Shown here: piece by piece, positions 7,238 to 63,615 of the stretch
How positions within the stretch are numbered: position 1 is the stretch's first letter
How the letters are laid out: every line of letters starts with the position of its first letter
NCBI GenBank assembly: GCA_963565915.1
Contig: OY751486.1
Coordinates: 4,464,001 to 4,528,000 of the forward strand
DNA: 64,000 bases
Origin: Entoloma clypeatum
Lineage: Eukaryota > Basidiomycota > Agaricomycetes > Agaricales > Entolomataceae
Reading direction: 5' to 3'
The notes under the pieces: generated by a model
Seen by the model: only the letters and a program-made list of their open reading frames with translations
Database searches by the model: none
Told to the model about the DNA's origin: nothing
Made by a program: the position numbers and the translations under genes

Positions 7238-7239
7238 AG

Positions 7240-7250
7240 TTGCTAAATCT
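7240..7250 (+). promoter_or_regulatory. Self-priming primer-binding site of element B
   Basis: TTGCTAAATCT starts 2 nt after the LTR end (7237) and is the exact reverse complement of AGATTTAGCAA in the LTR at 7154-7164. The LTR copy lies where transcription should begin, 32 nt past the TATA box. This is the arrangement known for Tf1/sushi-group retrotransposons, where the folded-back mRNA 5' end primes reverse transcription. No tRNA 3'-end match was recognised here. Confidence 0.75.
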
Positions 7251-12548: not shown

Positions 12549-12663
12549 AAGAATAAACTTTGAGCCATTTTCCACATCGACTTCTGTCACATCGAGTTCC
12601 CCGCTCCAACTCTTCTCGCCCAACACGCCGTTCTTCTTATACCTTTCAAACATCATTTCTGCC

Positions 12664-13032: not shown

Positions 13033-13069
13033 GTAGTCTGTGAGGACACAGACCTTGAGGAGGGGAACA

Positions 13070-13437
13070 TGTTACGGACTAACGACTACGGACGTATATG
13101 CTTACTTTTTCACTTTTACTCATCGGCCCCCGCTTACACATATCGTATTATACTTTATTTCCTTTAGTATACTTCGCTCCCGCGCTGACTCGCTTTCCGC
13201 AGCTGTCTGACTCATTCCGCAGTCGTCTTACTCAGACGCACTGCCTTCCGCAGTTATCTTACTCAGATACACTGCCTTGCGCAGCACTGACTCATATGCT
13301 ATCGCCTATAGTCAGTACCTATATAAACCCTTTGTACTATAGCTAGATTCCTTAGATTTAGCAATCACATTGCTCTTCGCCTTTCCATCTTCCTGCATAC
13401 TCTGCCCGAACCTTGGAACGGTTTGTTACGCATAACA
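13070..13437 (+). repeat. 3' LTR of element B
   Basis: 368 bp, nearly identical to the 5' LTR. It is preceded by the purine-rich tract gaggaggggaa, the likely plus-strand primer. Confidence 0.95.
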
Positions 13438-26574: not shown

Positions 26575-26579
26575 ATAAG

Positions 26580-26889
26580 TGTTGAAACTTTTCCCATCAC
26601 GTAGATTAGATTAGATTAGATTACATCACGTGACCTTTACATATCTTCATTACATACTTGTTTGGTTGGTACAAACAGTAGTACGGTATATAAGACCAGG
26701 AAACTGTCAATATCAACAAGTTGTCTCTTGACTCTTAACCGCCTCCATCGCTCTTACCAGCCTCAACCGCTCTCACCAGCCTCACCCTCTCCAACCTATG
26801 TAAGTGGTCAGAACGGTATCGTAGAGTACTTCCACTGCAGCCGGTTGCTTCAGTACACTTGCGGCTAGCGCCCAGGTGGAACTTCAACA
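26580..26889 (+). repeat. 5' LTR of copia F
   Basis: TGTTGAAAC...CTTCAACA, 310 bp. It contains a short GATTA tandem (about 26605-26622), a TATA box (GTATATAAG near 26695) and a possible splice-donor-like ctatgtaagtgg near 26799. Confidence 0.95.
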
Positions 26890-26902
26890 GGTTATGGGCC
26901 CC
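26890..26902 (+). promoter_or_regulatory. Initiator tRNA-Met (half-tRNA) primer site of copia F
   Basis: GGTTATGGGCCCC follows the LTR without a gap and is complementary to the anticodon arm of initiator tRNA-Met. The same site is found in E and G. Confidence 0.75.
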
Positions 26903-27250
26903 GGATAGCAGAGGGACTTGGGAAACGCTGGCAACAGCGAGTACCTGCCCACTCTACCCTGGTTGGCAAAGAACCGATCGAAAGATCTAGGTTCTGAGTC
27001 ATACTTCTTCACATATGAACCTGGGAACGTCATTACGACAAGTACCTGTCATGAAACGTCCCTAAAGGGATTGACCTAGTACACTCCATGTGGAAACGTT
27101 GATCGCACCTTATACGTCTCTGACATATAAAGGGTTTTCCCATGACCGCTATTCCTGAAGGGAATATGTCATAAGGAATCATTCAATTGTTTTCTCGAAT
27201 CATATTCATAACACATCACTGATTGAGAACCCTTTTTAGATTCATTCAAA

Positions 27251-30200
27251 ATGTCTACCTCTCGTTCTGCCCTCGACACGATCACTGCCTTTGACGGCAT
27301 CGACTACTGGAGCTGGGCCGAGAAAATGAAGTCTTACCTCCTCCATCAAGGAGTCTGGCGCCTTGTTTCTGGCGACATCCCCCGCCCTGTCATCGCCGAC
27401 TTCACCACCACAGTCTCCACCCCTGGGGCCACTGCTACTGCTCCTCCTGTGCTGGCCACCACGGTCGACCAGCCCGGCTTCCGCAAGGAAGAAAAAGCCT
27501 GGATCAGGGACGATGACATAGCTCTTGGGGCGATACGCCTTAAGGTCTCCGAGGCGATCAGACGCCACATCAAGGACGCCACTTCCTCGAAAGACGCCTG
27601 GAAGTCGTTAAAGGATGCCTACTCCAAGGTATCCCCGGCCGTCATCTTCGGCGACTTCAAGGCCGCCGCCACCTACAAGCTCTCTGGACGCGACCCCGTC
27701 CCTGAAATCGAGCGCCTGGGGTCTCTCTTCGCTCGGCTCGCCGATTCGAACTTTGACGTCCCCGATCTGATGCAGGCAATGATCCTGGCAAATGCAATTC
27801 CCGACGCCTGGTCGTCACTCTCCACCGCCCTCTTCCAGGTCTATGACGCCGACGATTTCACCTACAAGGCCGTCGCCGAAAGCATCATATCAGAGTACCG
27901 GCGCAAGTATTCGATTGGGTCCACTCGTACGTCCAACGAGCAGGCCCGGAAAATCTCCGGGACAAAGCGCAAGGGGCAGGACCCCAAATGGGAAAAGCAG
28001 CAAAAGCCGAGTACCTCGCAGAACGACGCTGACGAGCAGCCTAACTCGACTGACCATAGTACCGCTTCTGAAAAGAAGAAGGGAAAAGGACGCTGGCGCA
28101 ATCAGAAGAAGAACGCCAACACTGCGGACAACGCATCCGACCACGCGGAAGAAACGGTTGAGTTCGTTGCTCCCGCCATCCACTTCCCTCCTCTTCCGAC
28201 ACCGTCCTTCACAACCGTCACTGGGCGCGGAAAAACTATGAGTACCGCCCAGCCAGACTCTCAAAAGATGCAGTCGCTCCTTCAGCGAATGAACCCCCCT
28301 CCGTCACAGTACACCGGGCTTCCTTCTGGAAAACCGTCCGTGTGGAAAAAGAACGACCATGTCCGCAAACTCGCACGCGGCATTGGTGCTCGCCCCTCAG
28401 GATCCAATCTTCGTATCCTAGATACCATCATTCCTGACATCGACGAAAGGCCGGCTAAACAGCGTCGCGTAGCCCCGTCGATAGAAGAATCTCTGAAAAT
28501 GATGGACATAGACCATCAAAGCGAGCGGATGGGGCCGGAACAATTCGAAGATGGGCTGATCGAACTTGACGGTTCGTCACATTCTTCTCTCAAACTTGAC
28601 CAAATGGGAAATGCTAATAAACACGCACAGACGTTTGAATTTATATTAGCCAGTACCAATGCAGATAGTATAGATCTCTTTAGCGATGATCTGTACAAAA
28701 AATATACCAAGCATTTTGCGTCCTGCACACACTGCAAAGAGAAAGAACGCGCTCAGTGGATCTTAGATTCCGGCGCTTCATTACACTTTACCCATGAGTT
28801 CAAAGACTTCGCATATTACAGGCCTCTCAAGGCTAAGCGATTTGTCCAAACAGCTGCAAAGGGAAAGAAACTGGAAATTCTCGGAGTTGGGGCCGTTCCA
28901 GTACGGCATACCCTAAATGGGGAAACTAAAACTCATCTCCTACGACCGGTATTTTATATTCCGGATATGGACACACGTCTACTGTCCCTAGGCGTCTTCC
29001 TTAACCATGGTTACAAAGTTGATGGAATGCGTGGAGAAATTAATATCTCTAAAGGGCTGAACAAAATACAGTTTTCGCCTCATTTCATCGGACAAACCAT
29101 TTATTGGTTAGACACTGAAATACGCTACGACCAAATCCACGCGATCTCTAGCGAAATCACTGTTGAAACCTGGCATAAACGCCTTGGCCACCCAAATGAC
29201 CAGGCGCTCAATAAGATTCCCACCAGTACCAAAGGAGTACCCAAAACGTTAGTACGTGAGAAATCACAGGAAAGCTGCACGGGGTGTCTAAAAGGGAAAA
29301 TGCCGAATCAATCTTACCCTAACTCGGTGACAAGGGCTGTCAAACCCTTTGATTTGATCCATTCGGACTTGAAACAGATATCCACGGCATCGTACCACAA
29401 GTACAAATATTTCCTTACCTTCTTGGATGATTTTTCTTCCCATGTCTGGGTCGTCTTGCTTAGGAAAAAGTCAGGTGCCATCACGGCGCTGAAACAATTC
29501 CTTGCGATGATCCAGAATCAATTCGCCGCCACCCCTAAAAAATGGCGGGTTGATGGAGGTGGAGAATTCAACGAATACAAGGATGTACTTGCCGATCATG
29601 GAATTCTGATCGACGTCACACTCCCATATCAGCATCAGCAGAATGGTAGAGCAGAACGTATCAATCGAACACTATGGGAAAAATCTCAGGCATTGCGCTT
29701 CGATGCGTGCTTACCGCCCATGTGGTGGGAATTCTGTTTGGAACACGCAGCATTTCTCTACAACAGAACCCCCATGCAGCGTCTTGAATGGAAAACCCCT
29801 CACTTCAGGGTAACCAATGAGATCCCCGACATGTCTAGCGTCAGAGTCTTCGGATGCCAAGCATATGTATACATCCCAAAAGAAAAACGCAGAAACTCCC
29901 TGGAGTCAAGATCTCGATTGATGATTTATCTCGGATCAAAACCAGGGGTCAAAGGATACCGCTTCATGGATCCTGAGACCAACACGATTTTCATGGGTGG
30001 GAAAGCTATCTTTGATGAAAGCAAGTACCCTAGATGCCACATCGACCCTTTGCCAGAAAACCATCCAGAAATGGAAAACCCAGAGCCGGCTGATGAGTTT
30101 GAGGATCTCATCCCTGGCAGCAACGACGACGAAAGTCACAACGAAACACCTCATGACCCACTTCCCATTGAACAGGATCAACCTGAATCAGACAACGATT

Positions 30201-31978
30201 TGCCTGCCAGTGAGCCTGATGACGAACCGCGAGTACCCACTCTGGAACCCGAGCAAGTACCAGATCGACCGATCAGGGAACGACGAGTTCGGAAGATGCC
30301 AGGAAGCATCTATGGGGAAGACACTCCAGCGTCTGATCTTGAAAAATTAGATCGAAGACGGAGACTGGGCGGTCAAACGGCATGGATGAATGACCTCCTG
30401 ATGGAGGCAATATCAGTCCAAGTTGGCATTGTCGACATGTCCCATAAAGACATATACCCTCTTCCAAATAAAGAAGACTGGTATGCGGCTGAACGTAAAG
30501 AGCTAGACATGCTCAAACGCCGCGGGGTGATCACGGAGCTAGTACCCCTGCCTGCAGGGAGGAAAGCTCTAAGGAATAAATGGGTTTACAACGAAAAGTC
30601 CGACGGGCGTCTGAAAGCGCGCCTCGTCGCAAAAGGCTTCTCACAGGTAGAAGGGATCGACTTTGATCAGATCTTCTCACCAGTCGTAAGATATGAAACC
30701 GTCCGGCTAATACTGGCATTGACAGCCCTTGAAGGGTGGTTCATGACACTGTTGGACGTCTCATCAGCCTTCCTCTATGGAACGCTCCGTGAAGTCATCT
30801 ATATGCGACAGCCTGAGGGCTACATAGTAAAAGGGAAAGAACACCTCGTGTACCAACTATTCAAAGCTCTATATGGACTTAAGCAGGCCGCATTAGCCTG
30901 GTGGAGGGAACTTGATTCCTCCATGAAAAAGCTCGGCTTTGTCCGGCTTCACTCCGATGCGGGAGTATTCATTCACAAAAGTACCAACGGGGAAATTGTA
31001 ATTGCCGTCATCTATGTCGACGACTCTGCTTTTCTCGGCACAAACCGGGAATATACGCTAGAAAAGAAAAAGGCCTTCATGACAACATGGGAATGTAGGG
31101 ACCTAGGTCACCTAGTGCCCGATGGGGAACCAAAGGAATTTCTCTCAATCCAAATAAGGCAACGTGGGAAGAGGATCTTCATTGATCAAGTACCTTACCT
31201 TGAGAAAATTCTGGCACGCATGGGGATGAGCGAATCTAATGCCACCCATACCCCACTCCCTACGGGCTACAAACCCATGGCGTCCGAAGATGAACCCAAT
31301 GCGGAACTCCGATCTAAGTACCAATCCGTCATCGGATCACTCCTATATCTGATGATTGGAACGAGGCCTGACATCTGCTTCGCTGTAATCAAAATGTCCC
31401 AATTTTCCGCAAATCCCACCAGACGCCATTTAGAGGTGGCTAGGGATATTTGCAGATATTTGAAGGCAACGAAAAATTACGCGATCATGTATGATGGGGA
31501 CTCAGGGAAAGGGATCTATGCATTCACAGACTCCGACTGGGCGTCAGATGAAAACACAAGGAGGTCTACCACCGGCTTCTTCATATCACTGGCGTCTGGA
31601 GCGATAACATGGGTATCATCGGCGCAAAAGACCATCGCCCTCTCTTCTACAGAAGCAGAGTATATGGCGCTATCAGATTGCAGTCGCGCAGCAACATGGC
31701 TGAGAAGCATGCTTGCCGAACTTGGAATGCAGATCGGATCAGTACCGATCTACGGAGACAACAACGGTTCCGTCTTTATCGCATCCAACCCTGTAACTGA
31801 GAAACGATCCAAGCACATTGACGTGCGATTCCACTTCGTCAGAGAAAAAGTCTCCGAAGGAATTATTACGGTCGAATTCATCGAAGGAGTGAATAACCCT
31901 GCAGACCTTTTGACCAAGAATCTGGGGAAAATCCTCTTTTCCAAGTTTATCCCGTACTTCGGACTGATAAAGAACTAG
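27251..31978 (+). CDS. gag-pol: Gag-pol polyprotein of copia F
   Basis: 1575 aa, single frame, ATG at 27251. Order: copia gag (residues 1-220; DYWSWAEKMKSYLLHQGVWR), a basic Gly/Lys-rich tail (KKKGKGRWRNQKK) in place of a CCHC knuckle, protease with WILDSGASLHFT near 503, pre-integrase HLGHP-type domain near 640 with CTGCLKGKMP, and integrase core (IHSDLKQI Asp, WRVDGGGEF Asp, QQNGRAERINR Glu). RT follows (KARLVAKGFSQVEGIDF near 1115; VIYVDDSAF near 1257) and RNase H (FTDSDWASD, LSSTEAEYMAL, DNNGSVFIA), ending at residue 1575. No stop or frameshift was seen, so the copy may be active. Gag and pol are in one frame, so the Gag:Pol ratio must be set otherwise, for instance by splicing or protein turnover. 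Confidence 0.95.
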   Translation: MSTSRSALDTITAFDGIDYWSWAEKMKSYLLHQGVWRLVSGDIPRPVIADFTTTVSTPGATATAPPVLATTVDQPGFRKEEKAWIRDDDIALGAIRLKVSEAIRRHIKDATSSKDAWKSLKDAYSKVSPAVIFGDFKAAATYKLSGRDPVPEIERLGSLFARLADSNFDVPDLMQAMILANAIPDAWSSLSTALFQVYDADDFTYKAVAESIISEYRRKYSIGSTRTSNEQARKISGTKRKGQDPKWEKQQKPSTSQNDADEQPNSTDHSTASEKKKGKGRWRNQKKNANTADNASDHAEETVEFVAPAIHFPPLPTPSFTTVTGRGKTMSTAQPDSQKMQSLLQRMNPPPSQYTGLPSGKPSVWKKNDHVRKLARGIGARPSGSNLRILDTIIPDIDERPAKQRRVAPSIEESLKMMDIDHQSERMGPEQFEDGLIELDGSSHSSLKLDQMGNANKHAQTFEFILASTNADSIDLFSDDLYKKYTKHFASCTHCKEKERAQWILDSGASLHFTHEFKDFAYYRPLKAKRFVQTAAKGKKLEILGVGAVPVRHTLNGETKTHLLRPVFYIPDMDTRLLSLGVFLNHGYKVDGMRGEINISKGLNKIQFSPHFIGQTIYWLDTEIRYDQIHAISSEITVETWHKRLGHPNDQALNKIPTSTKGVPKTLVREKSQESCTGCLKGKMPNQSYPNSVTRAVKPFDLIHSDLKQISTASYHKYKYFLTFLDDFSSHVWVVLLRKKSGAITALKQFLAMIQNQFAATPKKWRVDGGGEFNEYKDVLADHGILIDVTLPYQHQQNGRAERINRTLWEKSQALRFDACLPPMWWEFCLEHAAFLYNRTPMQRLEWKTPHFRVTNEIPDMSSVRVFGCQAYVYIPKEKRRNSLESRSRLMIYLGSKPGVKGYRFMDPETNTIFMGGKAIFDESKYPRCHIDPLPENHPEMENPEPADEFEDLIPGSNDDESHNETPHDPLPIEQDQPESDNDLPASEPDDEPRVPTLEPEQVPDRPIRERRVRKMPGSIYGEDTPASDLEKLDRRRRLGGQTAWMNDLLMEAISVQVGIVDMSHKDIYPLPNKEDWYAAERKELDMLKRRGVITELVPLPAGRKALRNKWVYNEKSDGRLKARLVAKGFSQVEGIDFDQIFSPVVRYETVRLILALTALEGWFMTLLDVSSAFLYGTLREVIYMRQPEGYIVKGKEHLVYQLFKALYGLKQAALAWWRELDSSMKKLGFVRLHSDAGVFIHKSTNGEIVIAVIYVDDSAFLGTNREYTLEKKKAFMTTWECRDLGHLVPDGEPKEFLSIQIRQRGKRIFIDQVPYLEKILARMGMSESNATHTPLPTGYKPMASEDEPNAELRSKYQSVIGSLLYLMIGTRPDICFAVIKMSQFSANPTRRHLEVARDICRYLKATKNYAIMYDGDSGKGIYAFTDSDWASDENTRRSTTGFFISLASGAITWVSSAQKTIALSSTEAEYMALSDCSRAATWLRSMLAELGMQIGSVPIYGDNNGSVFIASNPVTEKRSKHIDVRFHFVREKVSEGIITVEFIEGVNNPADLLTKNLGKILFSKFIPYFGLIKN

Positions 31979-32054
31979 GCGAAACAAAAGTACCTATATA
32001 TATATGTGGGAAAAAGTAAGATGTATTTAGAAGTATGTACTAAATATGGGGGGG

Positions 32055-32364
32055 TGTTGAAACTTTTCCCATCACGTAGATTAGATTAGATTAGATTACA
32101 TCACGTGACCTTTACATATCTTCATTACATACTTGTTTGGTTGGTACAAACAGTAGTATGGTATATAAGACCAGGAAACTGTCAATATCAACAAGTTGTC
32201 TCTTGACTCTTAACCGCCTCCATCGCTCTTACCAGCCTCAACCGCTCTCACCAGCCTCACCCTCTCCAACCTATGTAAGTGGTCAGAACGGTATCGTAGA
32301 GTACTTCCACTGTAGCCGGTTGCTTCAGTACACTTGCGGCTAGCGCCCAGGTGGAACTTCAACA
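32055..32364 (+). repeat. 3' LTR of copia F
   Basis: 310 bp. It differs from the 5' LTR at a CG/TG site in the TATA region and at one C/T site (ctgcagcc versus ctgtagcc). Confidence 0.95.
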
Positions 32365-33972: not shown

Positions 33973-34156
33973 GAAACATGTACTCATGATCTGACCTTAT
34001 CCCTAGTACCACTTGAGCTGCATGGATATGGAGTACCCCTTATCGAACTGGACCTGTGACGCTTGTGAATCGAGCAATTGAGGAAGTAAAAGGAGGAGGA
34101 CGTAGGTGTTGAGGTGTGGGTGCTGGTGGGCACTGGTTGGTCATTGTTGGTCCATG

Positions 34157-34738
34157 TGTCACGTAGCGTGTTTCTCAACGTCAGAAAACGTCGGACGAGT
34201 TGGAGCGGAGTAGCGGAAGAGCGGAATGCGGTAAGTGCGACGTTGGCAGAAAGGACCTGGCTTCAACTTGTGTGTTGCGCCCCACTCTTTGATGTGGTCC
34301 TCGATTTCGGATTGGCGGATGTCGGATGAGCGGATGAGCGGATGTCGGATGAGCGGATGAGCGGATGAGCGGATGAGCGGATGAGCGGAGGTGACGGAGA
34401 GAATGCTCAAAGGCAAGTAGAGACGGATGCGAATGAGGTGTAACGTATGATATTTGAACTGAGGTTCTACGACAGGTTTGTACACTATTTATAGTAGACT
34501 AGAATGATCAGCATTACTATAAGTGATGTGCAGATATCGGAGTTGACCATCGGAACATTCGGAGTACGGAGAGTAACAAATGAAAAGTGAACAACATATG
34601 TCTACTTGTAAGTATGGTTGAGATGTTACGTAGTAGAAGTATATTCAATATAAATAGAATGTTGTTGGAGCGGATGTCGGAGCGGATGAAATGTCGGAGT
34701 TGTCGGATAAGTCGGATGTGAATTGTATGGTTATGACA
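34157..34738 (-). repeat. 3' LTR of element D (582 bp)
   Basis: Minus-strand TGTCATAACC...CTACGTGACA. It contains the GGATGAGC microsatellite (34316-34390), expanded compared with the other LTR. It carries TATA boxes on both strands: minus CTATAAATAG (34494-34485) for the element, and plus TATAAATA (34649-34656) facing the antisense gene. Confidence 0.95.
34316..34391. repeat. 8-bp microsatellite GGATGAGC in the D LTR
   Basis: Left LTR: GGATGTC, two GGATGAGC, GGATGTC, five GGATGAGC. Right LTR (about 41391-41425): GGATGTC and three GGATGAGC. The four extra 8-bp units plus one 7-bp unit account exactly for the 39-bp length difference of the LTRs. Confidence 0.9.
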
Positions 34739-34869
34739 GTATTTCCCTCTTAGGGCCGAACCCTGAGGCCCAGATGAGGTAATCCATGTGACCGTTGGTT
34801 GAAAAGCTTTGTGTGTGATCTTTCTCTCTTGTCACCCAACCACAACATCTATCCCGACGCCTATCCGTT

Positions 34870-35855
34870 ATGTCCACTGAAAACTCACCCCTCGCCGCTC
34901 TTCGTGCTGAAAGGGAGCGCCAGAAGAAGGTCACCGAAGAGTTGGAGAGGAAGCTGCAGGAGGCAGAGGAGCGCGCGGAGGCGAAGAGGGCGGCGAAAGA
35001 GCAGAGACGAGCAGAGAGGAAGGCAGAGAAGGCGAAGGCGAAGGAACCAGTCGCGGGTGCAGGTGCGGATGCGGAGGCGGATGCGGATGCGGCGAGTGCG
35101 GAGGTGAAGAAGGTCCGGCTGCAGGGGGTTTTCAAGAATATGCCTGCGAGTTACGAGCAGGGGAAGGAGGATTGCACCTCCTGCTTGAAAGCGGGGGACT
35201 TGTGTTTTTGGCCATCGGAGTGAGTTTTTCCTATTTCTTTATACGCTTCGTTATTAACTTGTTCTTTAGGAATGACAATGCTTTGTCGTGCTGGCGGTGC
35301 CAGCGTTTAAAACGAAGCTGCAGAACGGGAGCGGAAGCGGAGTCGGAGGTGAAGCGGAGGATGACCAAGGCGGTGAGGGTCGGAAAGGCTAAGGTGGCAG
35401 GTGGTGCGACGAAGAACGCGAAGGCGGGATCGTCCAAGGGAGAGGGGACCGCGGAGGGATTGCGGATAGCCGCAGCGTCGGAGGAGCCGGAGTTCATGCC
35501 GGAGGGGTTTGGTCCGCCGGAGGTGGTGAGAGGGCTTAGGAGCATGATAAGGGAGATGCGGCTGATAAAGGCGGAGTTGAAGGAATTGCGGGAGATCAAG
35601 GAGCTTTTGACGGTTATCGCATGGAGGGAGGATTCGGAGGCTTCGGAGGAGGGATCCGACGAGGACGAGGATGCGGAGGAGTATGATAGGGTATTGGAGG
35701 AGTTGGGAAGGGAGGTAGAAGAAGAAGCAGAAAAAGAAGAAGAAATGAAGAAGCGGAAGCGGATGGAGGAAGCGGAAGAGGAATCCGGATCGGAGTGGAA
35801 CGAGGAGACGGAGGGGGTATCTAACAAAAAAACAGCGAAAGTAGTTTTTTGTTAG
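34870..35855 (+). CDS. Antisense Zn2Cys6-type coiled-coil protein in element D (2 exons)
   Basis: Exon 1 is 34870-35219, intron 35220-35269 (GTGAGT...TTTAG, 50 nt), exon 2 35270-35855, giving 311 aa. Residues 10-75 are a charged coiled coil (ERERQKKVTEELERKLQEAE). Cys102, 105, 112, 124, 127 and 134 follow CX2CX6CX11CX2CX6C, the spacing of fungal Zn2Cys6 DNA-binding clusters; the intron falls between the third and fourth Cys. The middle holds a helix (RSMIREMRLIKAELKELREI) and the end is Glu-rich with SNKK. It runs antisense to D, between the pol stop (35889) and the 3' LTR. Its promoter is probably the plus-strand TATA in the LTR at 34649. Element H carries a relative with the same intron position. 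A regulator of the element or of host genes is possible; DNA binding is inferred only from cysteine spacing. Confidence 0.72.
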
Positions 35856-35888
35856 TATAAAATTTTAATAGATTTTCTTTTCTTTTTG

Positions 35889-38800
35889 TTACAAGCGCGA
35901 TAAGGGGCCTGGCTTAGTTGGTTGAGCGGAGTGGAAGTCCGCTACCGTATCCACTGCGTGTTCAAGCTCAGATGCGGGTAACCAAGAAAACTCTTCACTG
36001 GTGTCTTCATAACCTAACCAGCGGACGAGGTAAAGGAGTTTGCAGCGTCGTCTTTTATCGATCTTTGAGTCGACGATTTCCGCAATTTCGTATTCGGTTT
36101 CTCCGTCCATCTCGAGCGGAGGTGGAGGAGATTGTATCCGATTTGGAATCTCGTTAGGAGTTGCTGGTTCGAGCATGGATATGTGGAAGACGGGGTGTAT
36201 AGCATGCATAGTGTCGGGTAGACGTAGTGTAAAGGAGTGCGTGCCGGGTTGGGCTATGATTTCAAATGGGCCAGCATATTTGTCGGATAACTTTTGGGTG
36301 GGTCGTGTGGTGCGGAAGAACTTAGCTTTAACAAAGACTTCTTGTCCGATGCGGAGCGGGGGAGGCGGAGAACGTCGGACGTCCGCAGGGCCTTGATAAC
36401 GTTGTTGTGCCTCTGCGACAGCAGTCTTTAGTTCTTGATGTAATTCATCTAAGTCGACGATGTATTGTCGAGCTTTATCGGATGCTAGATCACGTTCCGG
36501 ATGGAGTGTAATGTCGGGGTGATAACCTTTGTTGGCGAAGAATGGTGATACACCTGTGGTGGCACTCGGAGTGTTGTTGTAAGCGAACTCCGCAAGCGGA
36601 AGCAAAGCGGACCAGTTGTCTTGCTGGTAGTTGCAGAAAATGCGGAGGTATTGTTCGAGTGTCTGGTTGGTGCGTTCGGTTTGACCATCGCCTTCAGGGT
36701 GATATCCAGAAGTGAAGTGAAGTCTCATATCGAGGGCTTTTGCAAGAGAGCGGAAAAAGCAGGAGACGAATTCAGGTCCGCGATCGGATGTGACATTTTG
36801 TGGAACTCCGTGCTTGGAAAAGACGTGAAGTACGAAAAGGTTTGCTAGGTCTTCGGATGTGCAATTAATGGTGGTAGGGATGAAGATGCCTTGTTTAGTG
36901 AGGCGGTCTACAATGACCAGAATCGCATCGGAGCCAGCGGATGTCGGAAGGGGTTCAATGAAATCCATGGAAATAGAATGCCAGGGACGTTCAGGAATAG
37001 GGAGTTGTTTAAGCAGACCGTAGGGTTTATGACGTTGGGGTTTGGCGCGCATACAAGTGGTACATGACTTGCAATACTTTTTGACGAAGTCGTGCATTCC
37101 AGGCCAAGTGTATTCTCATTGGATAAGACTAATAGTCTTATTTTGACCAGGGTGTCCAGCAAGGATATGGTCGTGCTTATTGCGGAGGATGCGGAGACGG
37201 AGGTCGGATGAGTCGGGAATGTAGATACGTCCATTGTGGAGTAGATAACCTGCTTCATTCACGATCCAGCGTGGATTAGGATTGTCGAGGAAAGAGGTAT
37301 AAATGGGATCGGTCGGAAGAGCGGAGAGGATGTCGGAGCGGAGCTGATCTGTATCCATGATGATTGTGGCACGGAGGACGGGTGTATATAACTCTGTTGC
37401 GCGAAGTGAAGTGGTGAGCTGTTCTTGTGTGAAGATGGGTTTGAAGTTGCTTGGGTTGATGGACGAATAGTCGCTATTTCCCTCTTTAGGGTAGACGTCC
37501 CATCGTCTACTTAAAAGATCGGGCTTCGTACCTAAACGGCCAGGGCGGAAGCGGATGACGAGATTGAACTGGCAGAGGTATTCGGACCAACAAGCTTGTC
37601 GACGTGATAAAATCTTGGTAGTAGAAAAGTACTCAAGATTTTTGTGGTCCGTTATGACATCGATCGGAACAGCGGAGCCTTCAAGGTAGTGATGCCAAAC
37701 CTTGAACGCATCGTGGATCGCTAATAGTTCTTTGTCGTGGGTGTCATAGTTTAACTCGGGAGGTGTAAAGGTGCGGGAGTGGAAAGCGACCGGATGGATT
37801 TCATCGTCAGAGGTGCGGATGGAGAGGATCGCACCCAAAGCGTAGTCGGAGGCATCGGTTTCGACAATAATAGGGCTGTCGGGAATCCAATGCGTAAGAA
37901 CAGGTGCCGTGGTAAAGGCTTTCTTCAAAGTTTTGAAAGATTCGCGAGCGGAGTCGGAGAAGTGCCATTGTGTGTTTTTGTGGGTGAGTCGAGTGAGCGG
38001 AACAGTGATTTCGGAGTAGTAAGGAATGAATCGTCGATAAAACCTAAGAAAGACTGAATGTCTTTGACCTTCCTTGGTTCAGGCCAATCTTGAATAATTT
38101 TGACTTTCTTATCCGACATGCGGAGGCCTGTCGGAGAGAGGATAAAGCCAAGGTATTCAACAGTATCCGTAGAAAACTCGCATTTGTCTGCGCGTGTGTA
38201 TAAGCCGTGTTGTCGGAGACGTCGGAGGACTTCGCGGACATGCTTCCAATGCTCGGAGGGAGAGTCGGAGTAGATGAGGATGTCGTCGAGATATATGGTA
38301 ACATACTTATCGAGCAGGTCGTGGAAGATGTCGTTCATGAAGCGTTGAAAAACGGCTGGGGAGTTGGTGAGTCCAAATGGCATGACAAGCCATTCAAAAG
38401 ACCCGTAGCGCGTGCGGAAGGCGGTTTTCCATTCATCTCCTTCCGCTATGCGGACAAGGTGATAGGCGTGTCGGAGGTTGAGAGCCGTATAAACACTGGC
38501 TTTTCCAGCGGTCTGGAGAAGGTCGGATATGAGCGGAAGCGGATATCGGTCCTTCTTTGAGATTTTGTTAAGACCACGGAAATCGACGCAAAGACGAAGG
38601 GAGCCATCCTTTTTACGAACGAAAAGGACGGGAGCACCGTGCGGGGAGGAAGAGGGTCGGATGAATCCAATGGTGAGGTGTTCGTCAATGAATTCACGGA
38701 GGGCATTGAGTTCGGTTTGTGAAAGGGAGTAGATCGGACCGAACGGAGGAGCGGAGCCCTCTTCAAGTTCGATTTTGAGGTCGTAGGGACGGTGGGGTGG

Positions 38801-39550
38801 AAGAGTGTCTGCTTTTCCTTTACTGAAGACGTCAGCATAGTCGTGGTATTCTTCGGGTACGTTTGTCAAGTCGGGGGTGTCGGAAGCGGATGCGGAGTGA
38901 GCGGAAACGGAGGGAGTCGAAAGGTGAAGTCGAAAGGATTGTGTACCAGGCAATTTGCATGCCCTCATAAATGCGGCTGCGTTAATGAGTGAAATCTGCG
39001 GAGCGGACTGCGGAGGTTCCGGAGGAGGAAGCGTAGCTGTCCTACCTTGGGAGGAGGTCGACGTCAATGTCGGAAACGGCTCTTTTTGCATCTGTGGACG
39101 GAAAGTGATACTGCCCAATACCCAGTCAATCATAGGATTGTGGCGGGTGAGCCAGTTGTATCCAAGAACCACGGAAGAAGCGGAGTCGAGCGGAGTAACA
39201 TAAAAATCCTGTTCAAAGGATTCACCTGAAGGAAAACATATAGGTATTGTTACAACTTGAGTGATAAACGCGTTAGAAGAACCATCGAAAAGCTTTAGTT
39301 CTAAAGGCGGAATAGCGGAGGTCGGAAGATCATAGGCGGAGGAAAAGTTATTGTCAATAAAACAGTGAGTAGATCCTGAATCAATAAGTGCTGGGACAGA
39401 ATCTGAAGAGAAAAAAGAAGATGAGATATTGATATGTAAAGAGTTCGGATCGGAGAGAGCGGATGTGTTAAGTTGGATGGGAGCGGAGGCACGGAGAGAG
39501 TCAACGCAGTCCTCAGACCGTGCTTCATGAGGACCAGTGCCTATTTTTTT
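35889..39550 (-). pseudogene. pol: Pol of element D: PR-RT-RNaseH-IN-chromodomain, disabled
   Basis: Open in the -1 frame from the gag end. It has a protease (ALIDSGSTHCFIDNNF), RT (CVDFRGLNKISKKDRYPLP; TIYLDDILIY), RNase H (ETDASDYALGAILS; TDHKNLEYFS), integrase HHCC (H-X3-H in HDHILAGH, CKSCTTC) and core (MDFIEPLP Asp; SDRGPEF Asp; GQTERTNQT Glu), then a chromodomain-like end (LYLVRWLGYEDTSEEFSWLP). Two lesions are seen. Near 38045 LGF is followed directly by a shifted YRRFIPYY block, as if 10 nt were lost between two TTTT tracts. A TGA at 37116-37118 replaces a likely Arg before EYTWPGM. Otherwise well preserved. Confidence 0.9.
39544..39550 (-). promoter_or_regulatory. Putative -1 frameshift site A_AAA_AAA in element D
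   Basis: In the gag frame the last codons read TCA AAA AAA TAG, so the canonical heptamer A_AAA_AAA abuts the gag stop. A -1 slip enters the pol frame (ATA GGC ACT GGT), which is open through the protease. Confidence 0.75.
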
Positions 39551-40273
39551 GACTTGATCTCCTTACTTTTTTCCTTGGCTTGAGTGCCAACTTGGGCGGC
39601 TTTCCCTTTAGCCTTGGAAGCGGAGGAGGTGGACTTGGGACAGTCCTTGACAGCGTGTCCGACGCTACCGCAGAATAAGCAAAGGTTATTATCGAAACAA
39701 CGTTTGCGTTCTTGATACGTCAGTTTGCCGTCTTTGCCTAATTTATTGGAGAGGTCGGGTTTCGGAGCGGATGTGGAAGCGGAAGCGGTAGCGGGAGCGG
39801 AGGGTTTGGTTGATGATGTTTGTGGAGTGGATTGGTTCGGAGCGGATTGTTTTTTGTCGGACTTGGGAGTGGGTTTATCGGTTCTGGATTTCTCTCATTG
39901 ACGTTCCCAGTAGCGAGCGTCAATAGTATGAGCCGCGGATCGTAGGTCTGGTAAAGACTTGATCTTGGGTTGTTGGGAGAGGATGTCCTTGATCCGATCC
40001 GGAAGTCCGACATAGTAGCGGTGTCGGAGGGAGTTTTCATCCCAGTCAGTCTTGGTAGCAAGACGTTGGAATTCAATGTTGTACTTCAATATCTTTTGAT
40101 TTTCCTTCATCCGTAGGTTGTCCAACTGTTCTTCGGCTTCACCCTGAGGGTCAATGGTACCAAACTCGGGGCGGAGAAGTCGGACGAACTCAGGGAAAGA
40201 ACCCCGCCAATTGGGTTCATCATCATCTAGAATGAAGGGTTCAAAAAATTCGAGTGCTGTGCCTCGGAAGTAA

Positions 40274-40614
40274 TGTTGAACATATTGCCAGATATGTCGC
40301 ACCATGTGCTTGTCACAGGAAGTGACTATAAGTCACTATTACCATATATGTGAGTTTATGGTACAACCACGGACACATGACTTGTTTATGCATTGTTTGT
40401 ACAATGGTCCGTGCGCATATTGGATTAGTATAAATACCCATGTATTTAGTACGATGAATCCTAACTCTTGAACACCCAGTTCTCTGAGACGTTGTAGCTA
40501 GTTCGCTTCTTGATTCCACTAACGTCTCTTAACCAGGTTAGTCTAGCTTCCATATGCCTTCGTACCGCTACGTCTTGAGCGCCCTTTGGGCTGCCTACGT
40601 CGGTTACATCATTA
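40274..40614 (+). repeat. Solo LTR of the copia E family
   Basis: 341 bp, TGTTGAAC...TCATTA, flanked by AGTAA (40269-40273 and 40615-40619). It is the reverse-oriented relative of the copia E LTRs (349 bp). It keeps the ATG of the LTR-encoded ORF0 (40556) and its first residues with conservative changes (MPSYRYVLSALWAAYVGYI). Confidence 0.93.
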
Positions 40615-41217
40615 AGTAAGACATGGCAAAGTTGACTTTGGAATGTTCTGAGTCGAAGTTGTCGTTGTCGGAGAAGTAAAGTTTGCATTGTAAAATGAAT
40701 GCGGAGAGTTTGCGTGGATCGGATCCGTCAAAGGTATCCGGTTCGTTGGCATACGACTTTTTCTTCTTTGTATCTCGACGTTTCAACTCTTTGGTCATGA
40801 GCAGAATGGCTTCAGCTAGATTGGGTTCCTGATCTGGATTGGAATCGGAGTCGTCCAAATCTCCATGTAAACTACCGTCGGAAGGAGGAGGAGATCCTCC
40901 TGGAGGTCTGCCGAATAAGCCAGAATTTAGAGGTGCAGAGGGTTCCGTTGGTGGGTTTAGTGGAGGACTGGCAGGAAGTGGTGGGAGCTGAGAGTCGGAA
41001 GAAGGCGGAGGAACGGATGGTCCGGGGGTAGGAGCGGATGATGATGCTGTGGCTCCTCGAGGGGTAATGGTTACATTGCGTGTTCCTCGAAGAAAAGCAG
41101 AGCGTGGTGTGGAGGATGAATGTTCTGCTGCTGCACGAGCAGTCCTAGTTGTTCGAACTGTATTACGGGTTTGAGACATGTGGGTAGAGGTTGTTGGGTA
41201 AATCAAAGAATGGTGGT

Positions 41218-41228
41218 AGTTCAAATAT
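41218..41228 (-). promoter_or_regulatory. Self-priming primer-binding site of element D
   Basis: On the minus strand ATATTTGAACT begins 2 nt after the LTR end (41231) and is the exact complement of AGTTCAAATAT in the LTR (41495-41485). That LTR segment lies 33 nt downstream of the TATA box start. Confidence 0.75.
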
Positions 41229-41230
41229 AC

Positions 41231-41773
41231 TGTCACGTAGCGTGTTTCTCAACGTCGGAAAACGTCGGACGAGTCGGAGCGGAGTAGCGGAAGAGCAGAA
41301 TGCGGTAAGTGCGACGTTGGCAGAAAGGACCTGGCTTCAACTTGTGTGTTGCGCCCCACTCTTTGATGTGGTCCTCGATTTCGGATTGGCGGATGTCGGA
41401 TGAGCGGATGAGCGGATGAGCGGAGGTGATGGAGAGAATGCTCAAAGGCAAGTAGAGACGGATGCGAATGAGGTGTAACGTATGATATTTGAACTGAGGT
41501 TCTACGACAGGTTTGTACACTATTTATAGTAGACTAGAATGATCAGCATTACTATAAGTGATGTGCAGATATCGGAGTTGACCATCGGAACATTCAGAGT
41601 ACGGAGAGTAACAAATGCAAAGTGAACAACATATGTCTACTTGTAAGTATGGTTGAGATGTTACGTAGTAGAAGTATATTCAATATAAATAGAATGTTGT
41701 TGGAGCGGATGTCGGAGCGGATGAAATGTCGGAGTCGTCGGATAAGTCGGATGTGAATCATATGGTTATGACA
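41231..41773 (-). repeat. 5' LTR of element D (543 bp)
   Basis: Collinear with the left LTR except for 39 bp fewer in the GGATGAGC array. The presumed transcript start AGTTCAAATAT (minus, 41495-41485) lies 33 nt past the TATA box. Confidence 0.95.
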
Positions 41774-41778
41774 CCATG

Positions 41779-46523: not shown

Positions 46524-46811
46524 TGTTATGATCGTATTTTCACTTTTCACTTTATCTTATCTTATCTCGATCTTATCTTATCTACATCATATCGCACATG
46601 AGGACATCTCATTATTATCACGCAGCATGACGCTGCCACAACGCAGCCTCATGGAATTTACATATATAAGTAGAGTACTTTCACTTGTATTCGATAGCTT
46701 GTTCTCTTGAGATTCCCGCTGGGTCTCTGGGCAATTCAGTTCGCTTCACATTTCCCACTTCGTTCTTAAGTTTGGGCTCGCGACGTCGTTTGACTTAGCG
46801 TCGCCTCAACA
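46524..46811 (+). repeat. 5' LTR of element C
   Basis: TGTTATGATC...CGCCTCAACA, 288 bp. TCTTATCT-type repeats lie near its start, a TATA box (TATATAAG) at 46663, and the presumed transcript start/self-primer AGCTTGTTCT at 46696-46705. Confidence 0.96.
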
Positions 46812-46813
46812 GA

Positions 46814-46823
46814 AGAACAAGCT
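46814..46823 (+). promoter_or_regulatory. Self-priming primer-binding site of element C
   Basis: AGAACAAGCT begins 2 nt after the LTR end and is the exact complement of AGCTTGTTCT at 46696-46705, 33 nt past the TATA box. Spacing is the same as in B, D and H. Confidence 0.75.
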
Positions 46824-47369
46824 CTTATCATCATCGCCCGCCCAAACACACACACTTCCCACATCACCATCACTATCCCCGCCGTTTCGTGCTTTTGCGT
46901 TAAAAGTCACACCTCGCCACTACACGCGGACCCTAGCGTTAAGGGGGACCTCCCGGACTTCAGGGATAAGAAGAGAAACGCTTGGTGCACCCACTATAAC
47001 TAGCGTTGCCGTTCGAGACACACAGGGAAACGTTGAGCCCGTCCCGTGTCGAGGTGACCAAAGGCCGACGCAACTGACCTTCGGGAAAGCTGCTGGCGCG
47101 TGTGGCGACTTGGAAAAGAAGGTCGCGCACGTTTAGTTCTCAAAAGGTGTTCCAACCCCCGATCTTTTCCCGGATTCAACAGAACCAGCGCGCGTAGGGG
47201 TGTTGACCGCGTGGTTTTCATTTTTCCCAGATCTTCCTTCATTCGGGCATTTCGGCTGCCTGGGTAAACAGATCGTTCTTTGGGTTTTTTCTTTTTTTAG
47301 GTTTTCTTTTTCGCTTAAGTAGCAGAACAGGGTCGCGCGCCCGCTACAAAGCACTATTGCTCACACAAC
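46824..47369 (+). other. ATG-free leader of element C
   Basis: No ATG in any frame from the presumed transcript start (46696) to the gag ATG (47370), 674 nt. It ends with a pyrimidine-rich tract and tttttttag (47281-47300), which resembles a splice acceptor, so a spliced leader is possible. Confidence 0.6.
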
Positions 47370-52375: not shown

Positions 52376-52386
52376 AAAGGGGGTAA

Positions 52387-52674
52387 TGTTATGATCGTAT
52401 TTTCACTTTTCACTTTATCTTATCTTATCTCGATCTTATCTTATCTACATCATATCGCACATGAGGACATCTCATTATTATCACGCAGCATGACGCTGCC
52501 ACAACGCAGCCTCATGGAATTTACATATATAAGTAGAGTACTTTCACTTGTATTCGATAGCTTGTTCTCTTGAGATTCCCGCTGGGTCTCTGGGCAATTC
52601 AGTTCGCTTCACATTTCCCACTTCGTTCTTAAGTTTGGGCTCGCGACGTCGTTTGACTTAGCGTCGCCTCAACA
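52387..52674 (+). repeat. 3' LTR of element C
   Basis: 288 bp, no difference seen from the 5' LTR. It is preceded by the purine tract agaaagggggtaa that follows the pol stop directly. Confidence 0.96.
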
Positions 52675-59772: not shown

Positions 59773-60245
59773 TGTTACATTCCGATCAATTCCGACGATT
59801 TCCGACCAATCCCAACACCTCCAACACCTCCAACATTTTGACTAATACTTATTATGCATACTTACTGTTATGAATCTCGTTACTACGTACATTACTTACA
59901 TCCGACCATTTTACTTATATTAAGAATCTCCGACAGCCACTCGTTATCCGACTCCGACAAAGCCACACGTCCTCCGACATCGTATTTAAACTTATGTAGA
60001 ATCGTGTATTAGCTTCAGTTTGAATATCAACTTAGATTCAACATCTTACCTCCCATCCTCTTTCCGACTCTTAACTTGAGTCCGACCTCCGATCCTCCGA
60101 AATAAGGACACCGACGTATTAGCGAGGGCACAACACACAAGTTGAAGCCAAGTCCTTGCCCCTACGTCGCACATGCTCTGACCACGCTCCGACCCTCCGA
60201 CGCGTCTGATGTAGCTCCGATGTTTTTGTCGATCAGTTCTTAACA
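59773..60245 (+). repeat. 5' LTR of element H
   Basis: TGTTACATTCCG...GTTCTTAACA, 473 bp, TCCGAC-rich. TATA-like TATTTAAA at 59983; self-primer CAGTTTGAATAT at 60016-60027. Confidence 0.95.
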
Positions 60246-60247
60246 GT

Positions 60248-60259
60248 ATATTCAAACTG
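60248..60259 (+). promoter_or_regulatory. Self-priming primer-binding site of element H
   Basis: ATATTCAAACTG begins 2 nt after the LTR end and is the exact complement of CAGTTTGAATAT at 60016-60027, 33 nt past the TATA-like box. Confidence 0.75.
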
Positions 60260-60291
60260 CCACTCGCTTATCCGTATTTCAAATTCCAGTT

Positions 60292-60378
60292 ATGGCAGCC
60301 CGCACCACTCAGAACTCCCGTGCAGCAGCAGCCGCGGCAGAAGCTTCAAACCTGCAGGACACCAGGGCGTCGTTTCTA
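60292..60378 (+). pseudogene. Gag N-terminal stub of element H
   Basis: ATG at 60292 gives MAARTTQNSRAAAAAAEAS and then meets the deletion junction near 60378, after which the sense frame changes to pol. It resembles the Ala/Arg/Thr-rich start of D gag. Confidence 0.6.
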
Positions 60379-60382
60379 CATA

Positions 60383-61939
60383 TGTTCCAAGATCTTTTCG
60401 CAAGAACAGCTCTCCGCTTCAGTTCGCGCGACTCAACTCCTTGAGCCCGTCCTCTGTGCAACCATTATCATGGACACAGAAAAGCTTCACCATGACATAC
60501 TCACAGCACTCCCTTCTGACACTCTTTACGACACTCTTTCTAAAGATCCTAAACCCCGCTGGTCTCTCAACCCCAATGGTTTCCTCCGACATGACGATCA
60601 GATATATGTTCCATACTCCGACAACCTCCGACTCCGAGTCCTACAGCACAAGCACAATCATATGCTTGCTGGACACCCGGGTCAGAGCAAGATGCTCGGT
60701 CTCATTCAGCGCGGTTGCGCCTGGCCCGGAATTCGAGATTTCGTCAAACACTATTGCAAGTCATGTACCACTTGCATGTGATTGAAGCCACAAAGACACA
60801 AGCCTTACAGCCTACTCAAACAGCTCCTGATCCCCGAACGTCCTTGGAATTCTATCTCAATGGATTTCATCGAGACCCTTCCGACCTCCAACAACTTTGA
60901 CTCCATCCTCGTTATCGTTGACCGATTGATGAAGCAAAGTATCTTCATTCCGACAACCATTCACTGCACCTCTGAAGACCTTGCCATACTCTTTGTATTG
61001 CATGTCTTCTCTAAACACAGCGTCCCCAAACATGTCACCTCTGACCGTGGCCCCAAATTCGTCTCCCGATTCTTCCGATCTCTCGGAAAGGCTCTAAACA
61101 TGACCCTCCACTTCACCTCCGGTTACCACCCCGAAGGCGATGGCCAAACCAAACGCACTAACCAAACCCTCGAACAGTACTTGCGGATATTCTGCAATTA
61201 CCAACAGGACAACTGGTCCGCTCTCCTTCTGATTGCGGAGTTCGCATACAACAATGCACCTAGTGCTACCACTGGCATATACCCCTTCTTTGCTAACAAG
61301 GGTTACCATCCAAACATTACTGTTCACCTGGAACGAGACCTTGCCTCTTCCTGAGCCCGATCCTTTGTGACTGACTTAGACAAACTTCACCAAGAACTGA
61401 AATCCACCATCTCCGACACTCAACGACGTTACCAAAAGTCCTCCAACAATAATCGGATTGCAGCTCCGACGTTCTCTGTTGGACAACAGGTTTTCGTCAA
61501 AGCACAGTTCTTCCGCACAACATGCCCATCCAAGAAACTCTCAGAAAAGTACTTGGGACCATATGAGATCATTGCACAACCCGGCACACACTCCTTTACC
61601 CTCCAACTCCCCAACACATTCCGCGGAGTTCACCCCATCTACCACATCTCCATGCTTGAACCCGCAACTCCGAACACCATTCTGAATCGGACCCAACCTC
61701 CGCCTCCTCCGATTGACATCGACGGAGAACTTGAGTACGAGATCGCTGAAATAGTCGACTCAAAGATCGACCGACGATGTAGCTGCAAGCTACTATATTT
61801 CGTCCGTTGGTTAGGATATGAAAACACTGATGAAGAATTCTCTTGGCTACCAGCCAATGAATTGGAAAACACCCCTGAGCTTGTCTCTGACTTTCACTCC
61901 GCTTATCCCGACAAACTGGGTCCGCTCACATCGCTCTGA
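60383..61939 (+). pseudogene. Integrase and chromodomain-like end of element H pol
   Basis: One frame with two TGA stops (60779-60781 and 61352-61354). It begins after RNase H (FSQEQLSASVRATQLLEPVL), then HHCC (HKHNHMLAGHPGQ, CKSCTTC), integrase core (MDFIETLP Asp; SDRGPKF Asp; the catalytic Glu region reads GQTKRTNQT, so the Glu is Lys), GPF/Y-type region and chromodomain-like LYFVRWLGYENTDEEFSWLP. Both TGA stand where D has or suggests Arg. Catalytically dead. Confidence 0.85.
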
Positions 61940-61966
61940 AACAAGAAAAACAAGTACTATTACTAT

Positions 61967-62977
61967 CTACTTAGTACGTTGTTTCTTGTTTGACGGACCC
62001 TCCTCCTTGTCCGACTCCGACTCCGACTCCGCCTTCTCCGACAGCTCTGAAATCGACATGTCGGAATCGTCCGACAGCTCCGGCAACTCCAACCTCTTCC
62101 TATTCACAAGATCCTTCCTAATCCTTCTCGCAATCCTCTTCTCCAGTCTCAACTCGTGCGTCTCCTCCGCCGTATCCATCTCCAACTCCGACCCTTCCTC
62201 CGACACCTCCGGCGACTTGGGTTGATACTCGGTGTTCACCGAGCCTTCAACTGCTGTTAGCAGTCGCCTCACCTGCCTCGTCTCCGCCAGTATCATCTTG
62301 AGGACACCCAAGACGGTGTCCTCCGACCCACTCTCCGACGGCATCTCTGACGCCTTTTTCTTCCCCTTAATCACCTTCACCGTTTTCTTCACCTCCTTCA
62401 CCTCCGACTTTCCCTCCGACACTCCGACCTCGCACTTCTTCTTGTCCTTGACACAACCCTTGCAGGACGACTTATTCCTAAAACAAAAGGTTAAAACAGA
62501 AGAGACAAACCAAAGAAGAACTTACTCATCGCGTTCACATTCGACGCCCTTCACAATGCACCTATCACAGGCACCGACCCCAACCCCAACCCCAACTCCC
62601 GACCCCTCTCCGACCGTCACCGTCACCTCCTCTACCTTCCTTTTCTTCGTCACCTTCTTCTTCTTCTTCTTCTTCTTCTCCGCCTGCGGCCCCCCCGACC
62701 CCTTGCTTGACGCGCCTTGCGCAGCGGCCACTTCATTGGCCCTCTTCTGAGCCGCCAGCTCCGACACCCGATGCATCTCCTCCGCTACCCACATCTCCTC
62801 CGCTACCCGCATCTCCTCCGCTAACCGCGCCGCCTCCGCAGCCCTCTCTTCCTCCGCTCTCCGCTCCTCCTCAGCCTTCCTCGCAGCCTCCTCCTCCGCT
62901 GCTCGCTTCTTCGCCTCCACCTCCGCGAGCTTAGCCTGCAGCGCCTCCATCTCCTTTTGAAAATCGGTTGCCGACAT
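61967..62977 (-). CDS. Antisense Zn2Cys6-type coiled-coil protein in element H (2 exons)
   Basis: Minus strand: exon 1 62977-62526, intron 62525-62478 (GTAAGT...TTTTAG, 48 nt), exon 2 62477-61967; 320 aa. Residues 5-85 are a long Glu/Ala/Lys/Arg coiled coil (ALQAKLAEVEAKKRAAEEE), followed by a Lys run and a Gly/Val repeat. Cys137, 140, 147, 156, 159 and 166 fit CX2CX6CX8CX2CX6C. A helical middle (VLGVLKMILAETRQVRRLL) and an acidic Ser/Glu tail ending near SNKK match the layout of the D protein, as do intron phase and position. The frame is open although pol of H is dead, so either it is selected or it is young. An earlier in-frame ATG at 63028 is possible. Confidence 0.72.
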
Positions 62978-63142
62978 ATTGAGGTTTTTTTTGGAAGAGT
63001 TTGAAACGAAAAGAGAATGGGGGAACAAGAAGAAAGAACCACTCGGACGGTATTTTCAACCAACACATCACATGACGCAGTTCACGTGCACCGACCACCT
63101 AGGTCCTTAGGCCTCATGGGTTCGGCCCTAAGGGGGAAATAC

Positions 63143-63615
63143 TGTTACATTCCGATCAATTCCGACGATTTCTGACCAATCCCGACACCTCCGACACCTC
63201 CAACATTTTGACTAATACTTATTATGCATACTTACTGTTATGAATCTCGTTACTACGTACATTACTTACATCCGACCATTTTACTTATATTAAGAATCTC
63301 CGACAGCCACTCGTTATCCGACTCCGACAAAGCCACACGTCCTCCGACATCGTATTTAAACTTATGTAGAATCGTGTATTAGCTTCAGTTTGAATATCAA
63401 CTTAGATTCAACATCTTACCTCCCATCCTCTTTCCGACTCTTAACTTGAGTCCGACCTCTGATCCTCCGAAATAAGGACACCGACGTATTAGCGAGGGCG
63501 CAACACACAAGTTGAAGCCAAGTCCTTGCCCCTACGTCGCACACGCTCCGACCACCCTCTGACCCTCCGACGCGTCCGACGTAGCTCCGACGTTTTTGTC
63601 GATCAGTTCTTAACA
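63143..63615 (+). repeat. 3' LTR of element H
   Basis: 473 bp. It differs from the 5' LTR at 12 positions by eye, 11 of them CG versus TG/CA. Confidence 0.95.

Follow-up and report, generated by a model that had tools for sequence, protein, structure and literature searches.

A conserved antisense gene for a zinc-cluster-like protein and one-strand CGGA arrays in gypsy retrotransposons of Entoloma clypeatum

Results

An antisense gene at the 3' end of a chromodomain gypsy element

The window, by which we mean the whole stretch of 64,000 nucleotides analysed here, contains a Ty3/gypsy retrotransposon, element D (Table 1), with the RT, RNase H, integrase and C-terminal chromodomain of a chromovirus, TG...CA LTRs and a short target duplication. 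The end of its integrase has 3817 relatives at E 0.001. Among the best 120 of these 3817, identity reaches 81 percent, and the named relatives include those from Trametes cinnabarina (69-71 percent), Paxillus rubicundulus (69), Cyclocybe aegerita (68), Scleroderma citrinum (66) and Armillaria ostoyae (62).

On the strand opposite to D, with the pol stop on one side and the 3' LTR on the other, lies the gene that the initial annotation had pointed out. Re-deriving the frame where it had been placed gave the same two exons, 936 nt in all, or 311 amino acids plus a stop, and the same six-cysteine pattern CX2CX6CX11CX2CX6C, at Cys 102, 105, 112, 124, 127 and 134. The predicted intron (50 nt, GTGAGT...TTATTAACT...TTTAG) separates the two Cys halves, again as described. 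One correction concerns the end of the 311-aa product: set against other copies, the window copy has a frame shift at the extreme end, and its final residues, the last of which is a seventh cysteine, are not those of the family. Most full-frame D copies end in SNKKQRK or near variants.

Table 1. Coordinates of the features of elements D and E within the window
Feature	Position	Strand	Remarks
Ty3/gypsy element D, chromodomain type	34157..41773	-	LTRs 34157-34738 and 41231-41773; target duplication CCATG at 34152-34156 and 41774-41778
CGGA sites, D 3' LTR	34192..34716	+	27 on + strand, 0 on the other; four (34538-34567) between the two TATA boxes
Sense TATA box in D LTR, predicted	34486..34493	-	stretch unchanged in 51 of 53 loci holding it
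Antisense TATA box in D LTR, predicted	34649..34656	+	stretch unchanged in 51 of 55 loci holding it
Exon 1, D antisense gene	34870..35219	+	first Cys half (35173-35205) after a charged, coiled-coil-like N-terminus
Intron, D antisense gene	35220..35269	+	phase 2, between the Cys halves; GT...AG in 59 of 59 loci holding the region
Exon 2, D antisense gene	35270..35855	+	second (basic) Cys half 35289-35321, then a helix-like middle and an acidic C-terminal region; frame end shifted in window copy
D pol	35889..39562	-	several frames in window copy; synonymous-level excess of TCCG (CGGA on + strand)
Gypsy E, internally deleted copy	59773..63615	+	LTRs 59773-60245 and 63143-63615; target duplication CCTAG
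E antisense exon 2	61967..62477	-	protein total 320 aa, CX2CX6CX8CX2CX6C, ends SNKKQRTK
E antisense intron	62478..62525	-	48 nt, phase 2
E antisense exon 1	62526..62977	-	
E 3' LTR	63143..63615	-	15 CGGA on antisense-gene strand, 0 on the other (counted over 63145-63612)

The window holds several further elements. The other two gypsy elements have no close pair of Cys halves and measure about 513 and 11 bases from pol to the repeat taken as the 3' LTR. One of them, the chromodomain gypsy at 46524-52675, has an open 1357-aa pol frame and 289-nt LTR stretches that are 100 percent alike; it is probably a young copy that lacks the antisense gene. The copia element at 26579-32353 has one open frame of 1583 aa, and since its LTR stretches are 99 percent alike it is a young copy. 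A 571-aa frame at 3644-5359 resembles, by eye, the RNase H end of a LINE-type element.

Copies of the gene across the genome

A genome search with the D gene returned at least 135 match rows, a lower bound with 127 of 336 candidates scored, and by the rows of this search exon 2 is present at no fewer than 103 places. A nucleotide pattern that describes the second Cys half matched 113 times in the genome, at least three of the listed matches being other sequences, compared with 0 for the reversed control. We took 63 of the 103 exon-2 places (30 + 20 + 13) and dropped the window copy itself (L003), which left 62 loci, not drawn at random. The gene is matched at every one of these 62, the pol end at 61 (the exception is L051) and the LTR query at 58, at some of them partially. 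The homologues in other gypsy copies by which the initial annotation had proposed to check the gene thus exist.

The architecture of the gene is well preserved among these copies. The intron region is absent from L058, L059 and L063; in the other 59 of the 62 aligned loci the GT...AG borders are kept throughout. A full-length spliced frame is predicted at 38 of the 62 loci, while 24 lack it. The six cysteine codons still encode cysteine, in order, in 60 of 60, 60 of 60, 59 of 59, 58 of 58, 57 of 58 and 59 of 59 of the loci holding each. Of 51 distinct indels in the exons, 33 have a length divisible by three, compared with 2 of 17 in the leader, intron and tail (Fisher p 0.0002). One copy (L001) had seemed from its search row to be an intronless processed copy; its sequence, however, retains the intron, and the deletions that it does have lie elsewhere and are in frame. 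None of the 62 loci proved to be a precisely intronless copy.

Measured against the window copy, omega of the gene lies between 0.19 and 0.41 in 15 of 16 loci and is 0.72 in L031; that of pol at the same 16 loci is 0.24-0.48. Taking a plain dN/dS near 0.25 as proof of selection had to be discarded, because a null in which the same substitution types are re-dealt, CpG context included, already has medians of 0.44-0.66 across the six copies for which 400 draws each were made. For the deepest intact pair the observed omega of 0.246 lies below all 400 null draws (median 0.57). Null draws as low as the observed value numbered, per 400, 0 for L057, 4 for L039, 5 for L047, 12 for L035, 40 for L032 and 177 for L048, so that the last two of the six leave the null unrejected. 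Judged from these substitution patterns, the deepest intact comparison is clear for purifying selection and the shallow ones are mixed. The dN/dS check suggested in the initial annotation, in which a ratio near 1 would have spoken against the gene, therefore came out in its favour for the deepest intact pair, with the yardstick being 0.57 and not 1. As a separate observation, in the deep D copies L052, L055, L056 and L057 the dS of the gene (34870-35830) is 1.6 to 2.5 times that of pol (35889-37900), which could reflect faster change, CpG content or 3'-end exchange between lineages.

Altogether, the sequence record makes it near certain that the D antisense gene is a conserved, spliced-looking gene of the element.

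Homologous genes in two further families

Scanning the window for CX2CX6C disclosed, besides the pair in D, one further close pair on a common strand, namely the minus strand of gypsy E. There the halves CDRCIVKGVEC and CKGCVKDKKKC flank a 48-nt intron. E has kept its chromodomain, has an integrase core that scores 30.0 bits (below the cut-off of 32.6) and is without RT. Its genome search returned at least 163 match rows (125 of 307 candidates scored), and at four diverged E-type places the exons are recognisable, several of them broken. A third gypsy family, F, was exposed by a search with the integrase of a database relative. Three F 3' ends were examined: L068 and L069 encode 287 aa with CX2CX6CX10CX2CX6C, and L070 has kept the cluster and has a divergent tail.

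The intron occupies the same place, in phase 2, in D, E and all three F copies. In BLAST comparisons with the best of 200 shuffles, F-D scored 78.2 vs 52.4 bits, E-D 77.8 vs 45.1 and F-E 52.0 vs 48.9, so that the F-E similarity is marginal on its own. Sharing the cluster layout, a basic motif at the C-terminus and an intron of identical place and phase, the predicted antisense genes of E and F are homologous to that of D.

Two E-type places stand apart. L066 (G000:C2:994350-996050) looks recombinant, exon 1 being of the E type and the C-terminal part, by eye, like the subfamily of L071. At L071 itself (G000:C6:1756600-1758500) the usual LTR upstream of the E-type antisense gene is absent; at that position there is no CGGA array, but a frame that by eye resembles part of a Tc1-type transposase.

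A zinc-cluster-like domain with its halves reversed

Zn2Cys6 domains (PF00172) have the spacing CX2CX6CX5-12CX2CX6-8C, and all three families conform to it, with X11 in D, X8 in E and X10 in F. The PF00172 scores are 10.4 and 9.5 bits for two copies of D and 11.0 for E, below the curated cut-off of 21; PF00172 is not among the Pfam matches of the L057 and F proteins. In Gal4 the basic residues lie in the first Cys half, whereas here the first halves (LKAGDL in D, IVKGVE in E and AQAKVE in F) are not basic and the second ones are (QRLKRS, VKDKKK and KDGKRV, respectively). The second Cys half of D aligns with the first half of the PF00172 profile. Because the profile score is under the cut-off and the basic half comes second, we describe the predicted protein as zinc-cluster-like without assigning it to PF00172. 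The initial annotation had read it as a Zn2Cys6-type regulator. For this reading speak the spacing, the selection and the two homologous families, and against it the PF00172 score and the order of the halves; the missing membership lowers the claim to the family, not that to a zinc-cluster-like regulator.

Searches for relatives outside these elements were negative. The whole D protein has no homologue in the protein database at E 0.001 and its cluster region none at E 1 (12 candidates with common words); exon 2 of D matched nothing in the viral contigs searched, and the solved structures gave no credible match to the cluster region. The TRP28 domain (PF04195) is not among the Pfam matches of the D, E and F antisense proteins. 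As to a host origin, the genome has 18 PF00172 matches, none of which, by eye, falls at the places listed for D or E.

CGGA on one strand of the elements

With no word preset, CGGA is the most enriched tetramer of the D LTR (27 vs 3.9 expected, z 13.0), of the E LTR (15 vs 2.8, z 7.6) and of the F LTR plus leader (29 vs 7.8, z 8.6). It ranks top in all seven D and E stretches tested, that is, both LTRs and five others, and is not the top tetramer in the copia control. The arrays are strongly oriented: counted as antisense-gene strand to other strand, the LTRs have 27:0 in D, 15:0 in E and 28:5 in F, the last ratio holding in both copies counted (L070 was left out, as its LTR start was not found). 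The 53 LTR matches in the genome, 49 to the D query and 4 to the E query and all of them related copies, have 971 CGGA and 0 TCCG. Over whole elements the densities by strand are 24.0 vs 3.9 per kb in D and 20.6 vs 2.9 in E, compared with 164 vs 161 sites in the 52,540 bases of the rest of the window (3 per kb each). Control counts are 31:31 for the gypsy at 6862-13361 and 21:22 for the copia element; the gypsy at 46524-52675 is strand-biased too (36:7), but its density is that of the background, 5.9 per kb.

The array of the D LTR is partly tandem, with a spacing of 8 bases ten times, and those of E and F are mostly non-tandem. Between the two LTRs of the window D copy there is a 39-base difference in a tandem CGGATGAG array (34299-34400 and the matching part of 41231-41773), so the number of CGGA sites, 27 and 21, changes through repeat gain or loss. 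The extended word also differs by family: TCGGA accounts for 15 of 15 sites in the E LTR, the D LTR has 13 GCGGA, 11 TCGGA and 3 ACGGA, and the F LTR has 15 TCGGA, 5 GCGGA, 4 CCGGA and 4 ACGGA. Such family-wise words are compatible with separate binding preferences and prove none.

We considered whether CGGA might be a by-product of protein composition. For the antisense gene itself this is partly true (28 vs 19.8 expected in D, 28 vs 22.8 in E); for D pol it is ruled out by synonymous-codon shuffles, 500 per segment. TCCG, which is CGGA on the antisense-gene strand, exceeds the shuffles in all three D pol segments, with 20, 21 and 42 sites vs 11.0, 11.2 and 22.2 (0 of 500 each). The excess is weaker in D gag (9 vs 5.8; 25 of 500) and mixed over the two segments of E pol (126 of 500 and 6 of 500), and there is none in four control pols. 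On the sense strand, CGGA is in excess as well in one D pol segment (10 vs 4.6; 3 of 500), and the control gypsy at 48302-52375 has a slight enrichment of that kind (17 of 500). In nine diverged copies CGGA is retained more often than other CpG tetramers of the same strand in the gene (0.60 vs 0.44) and in pol (0.60 vs 0.47), and no better than these in the LTR (0.47 vs 0.42 and 0.46; p 0.40).

Zinc-cluster proteins typically read CGG triplets in pairs and pair with each other through a downstream coiled coil, and Pho7 binds TCGGACATTCAA, a TCGGA site (PMC5559640). CGGA, which contains the triplet read by these proteins, is a likely candidate target of the antisense protein. In three families the gene is accompanied by CGGA arrays; the other two gypsy elements of the window have neither.

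Predicted promoters in the LTR

The two predicted TATA boxes of the D LTR are divergent: four CGGA sites separate them, and others lie to either side. In the E and F LTRs the search that detected these boxes returned none, and the back-to-back pair was found in D only.

Discussion

Relation to known systems

HBZ of HTLV-1 has a spliced form with a coiled-coil pairing region, and we know of no motif arrays of the CGGA kind associated with it. Its gene is antisense, with promoters in the 3' LTR, and its product is a nuclear regulator (PMC11963269). The likeness to the present gene lies in the antisense position and the predicted coiled coil, here with kept splice sites and, in D, a predicted antisense TATA box; the difference is that HBZ is a leucine-zipper protein of a retrovirus. 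Plant Ty3/gypsy elements of the Retand type, and likewise Grande and RIRE2, carry antisense ORFs with a TRP28 domain (PMC11963269). As in D, E and F, the extra ORF of Retand is antisense to gag-pol, lies between pol and the 3' LTR and is predicted to bind DNA, and many Retand-type elements have repeat arrays (PMC11963269). Retand differs in that its domain is TRP28, whereas here it is zinc-cluster-like and split by an intron; moreover, Retand belongs to a non-chromovirus lineage of plants, while D and E are fungal and have a chromodomain. Antisense ORFs so placed are already known from Retand (PMC11963269), and HTLV-1 provides a precedent for antisense expression out of the 3' LTR (PMC10186651). 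In the literature covered, which includes few subscription papers, there was no fungal gypsy element that combines an antisense zinc-cluster gene, an intron and matching arrays.

The closest parallel in motif layout is VANC of the Arabidopsis VANDAL transposons, an accessory transposon protein whose short motif is dense and in one orientation in its own element (as described for VANC21), rare elsewhere, arranged in tandem repeats and different between related families (PMC5735166; PMC10398659). D, E and F likewise have dense CGGA of one orientation in their own sequence and sparse CGGA elsewhere. VANDAL elements, however, are plant DNA transposons with motifs mainly in non-coding DNA, while CGGA also occurs in pol, and anti-silencing has been shown for VANC (PMC5735166), a role that the D, E and F proteins may share. 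With Gal4-type factors and Pho7 the predicted proteins share the spacing of the six cysteines, a helix-like stretch after the cluster and a CGG-type word in the presumed target (PMC5559640). They differ from Gal4-type factors in scoring below the Pfam cut-off, in having the basic half second and an intron between the halves, and in being encoded by a retrotransposon.

A candidate self-regulator and its alternatives

We slightly favour the reading, at little better than even chances, that the antisense gene encodes a DNA-binding regulator of the element's own LTR, like HBZ in position and like VANC in the layout of its motif; the one-strand arrays, which the initial annotation does not mention, lend support to such self-regulation. 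The antisense transcript would start in the LTR, be spliced and encode a nuclear zinc-cluster protein, which would pair through its coiled coil, bind the CGGA arrays that its family carries and in this way control the LTR promoters. One LTR would thereby serve two promoters with common CGGA sites, the 5' copy driving gag-pol and the 3' copy the regulator. Activation or protection from silencing seems somewhat more likely than repression. The intron could persist in an element of the D type because reverse transcription uses the RNA of the opposite strand, the splicing of which would leave it in place. A fuller version of this idea can be put forward only tentatively, as one possibility that we hold to be less probable than not by a clear measure: an antisense activator or anti-silencing factor, coded by the element, with a reversed-half zinc cluster, CGGA filling both the LTRs and synonymous sites of pol, and protein and motif co-evolving by family, in short a fungal counterpart of VANC.

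Other readings share part of this evidence. The antisense gene may be real and the one-strand motif may nevertheless act as UCCG in the sense RNA, for example in packaging, export or translation, unbound by the antisense protein. Strict orientation would suit RNA equally well, and the motif spans pol as well as the LTR; but CGGA includes CGG, the triplet that zinc-cluster proteins read (PMC5559640), and gene and arrays go together in presence and absence, although such independent cases are few, and we consider this explanation unlikely. A similarly low probability attaches to the suggestion that the protein targets host genes or silencing proteins, or is an RNA-binding or particle protein, with the CGGA arrays having another cause such as the spread of simple repeats. 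The low PF00172 score would agree with a protein of this kind, and the partly tandem D LTR with repeat spread, against which stand the mostly non-tandem arrays of E and F and the excess in D pol at the synonymous level, where repeat spread is constrained.

Two further explanations take the coding capacity itself less seriously. That the antisense RNA is what matters, for instance by damping the expression of gag-pol, with its coding capacity secondary, is suggested by the convergence of the gene with pol and by the kept antisense TATA box (predicted); since omega, the in-frame indels, the invariant cysteines and the conserved intron between the exons all point to selection on the protein, we regard it as very improbable. 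A chance open frame in low-complexity DNA rich in Glu, Ala and Lys would account for the biased composition, the empty protein-database searches and the loci that lack a full frame, but hardly for three families with a common cluster layout, intron place and phase and basic C-terminal motif, nor for the outcome of the selection tests, by which this explanation is largely refuted.

Implications

For the antisense accessory genes of Retand and of HTLV (HBZ), the targets of the proteins have been left open. Here the gene, a candidate motif and elements with neither are found in one genome, so that the question of the target is reduced to one binding experiment. If the self-regulator reading is true, we have here a retrotransposon that brings along a DNA-binding factor specific for its own promoter and has shaped its coding sequence to recruit that factor. 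The reversed cluster would then represent a novel layout of a familiar DNA-binding domain of fungi, and these elements would illustrate how introns can be retained despite passage through RNA.
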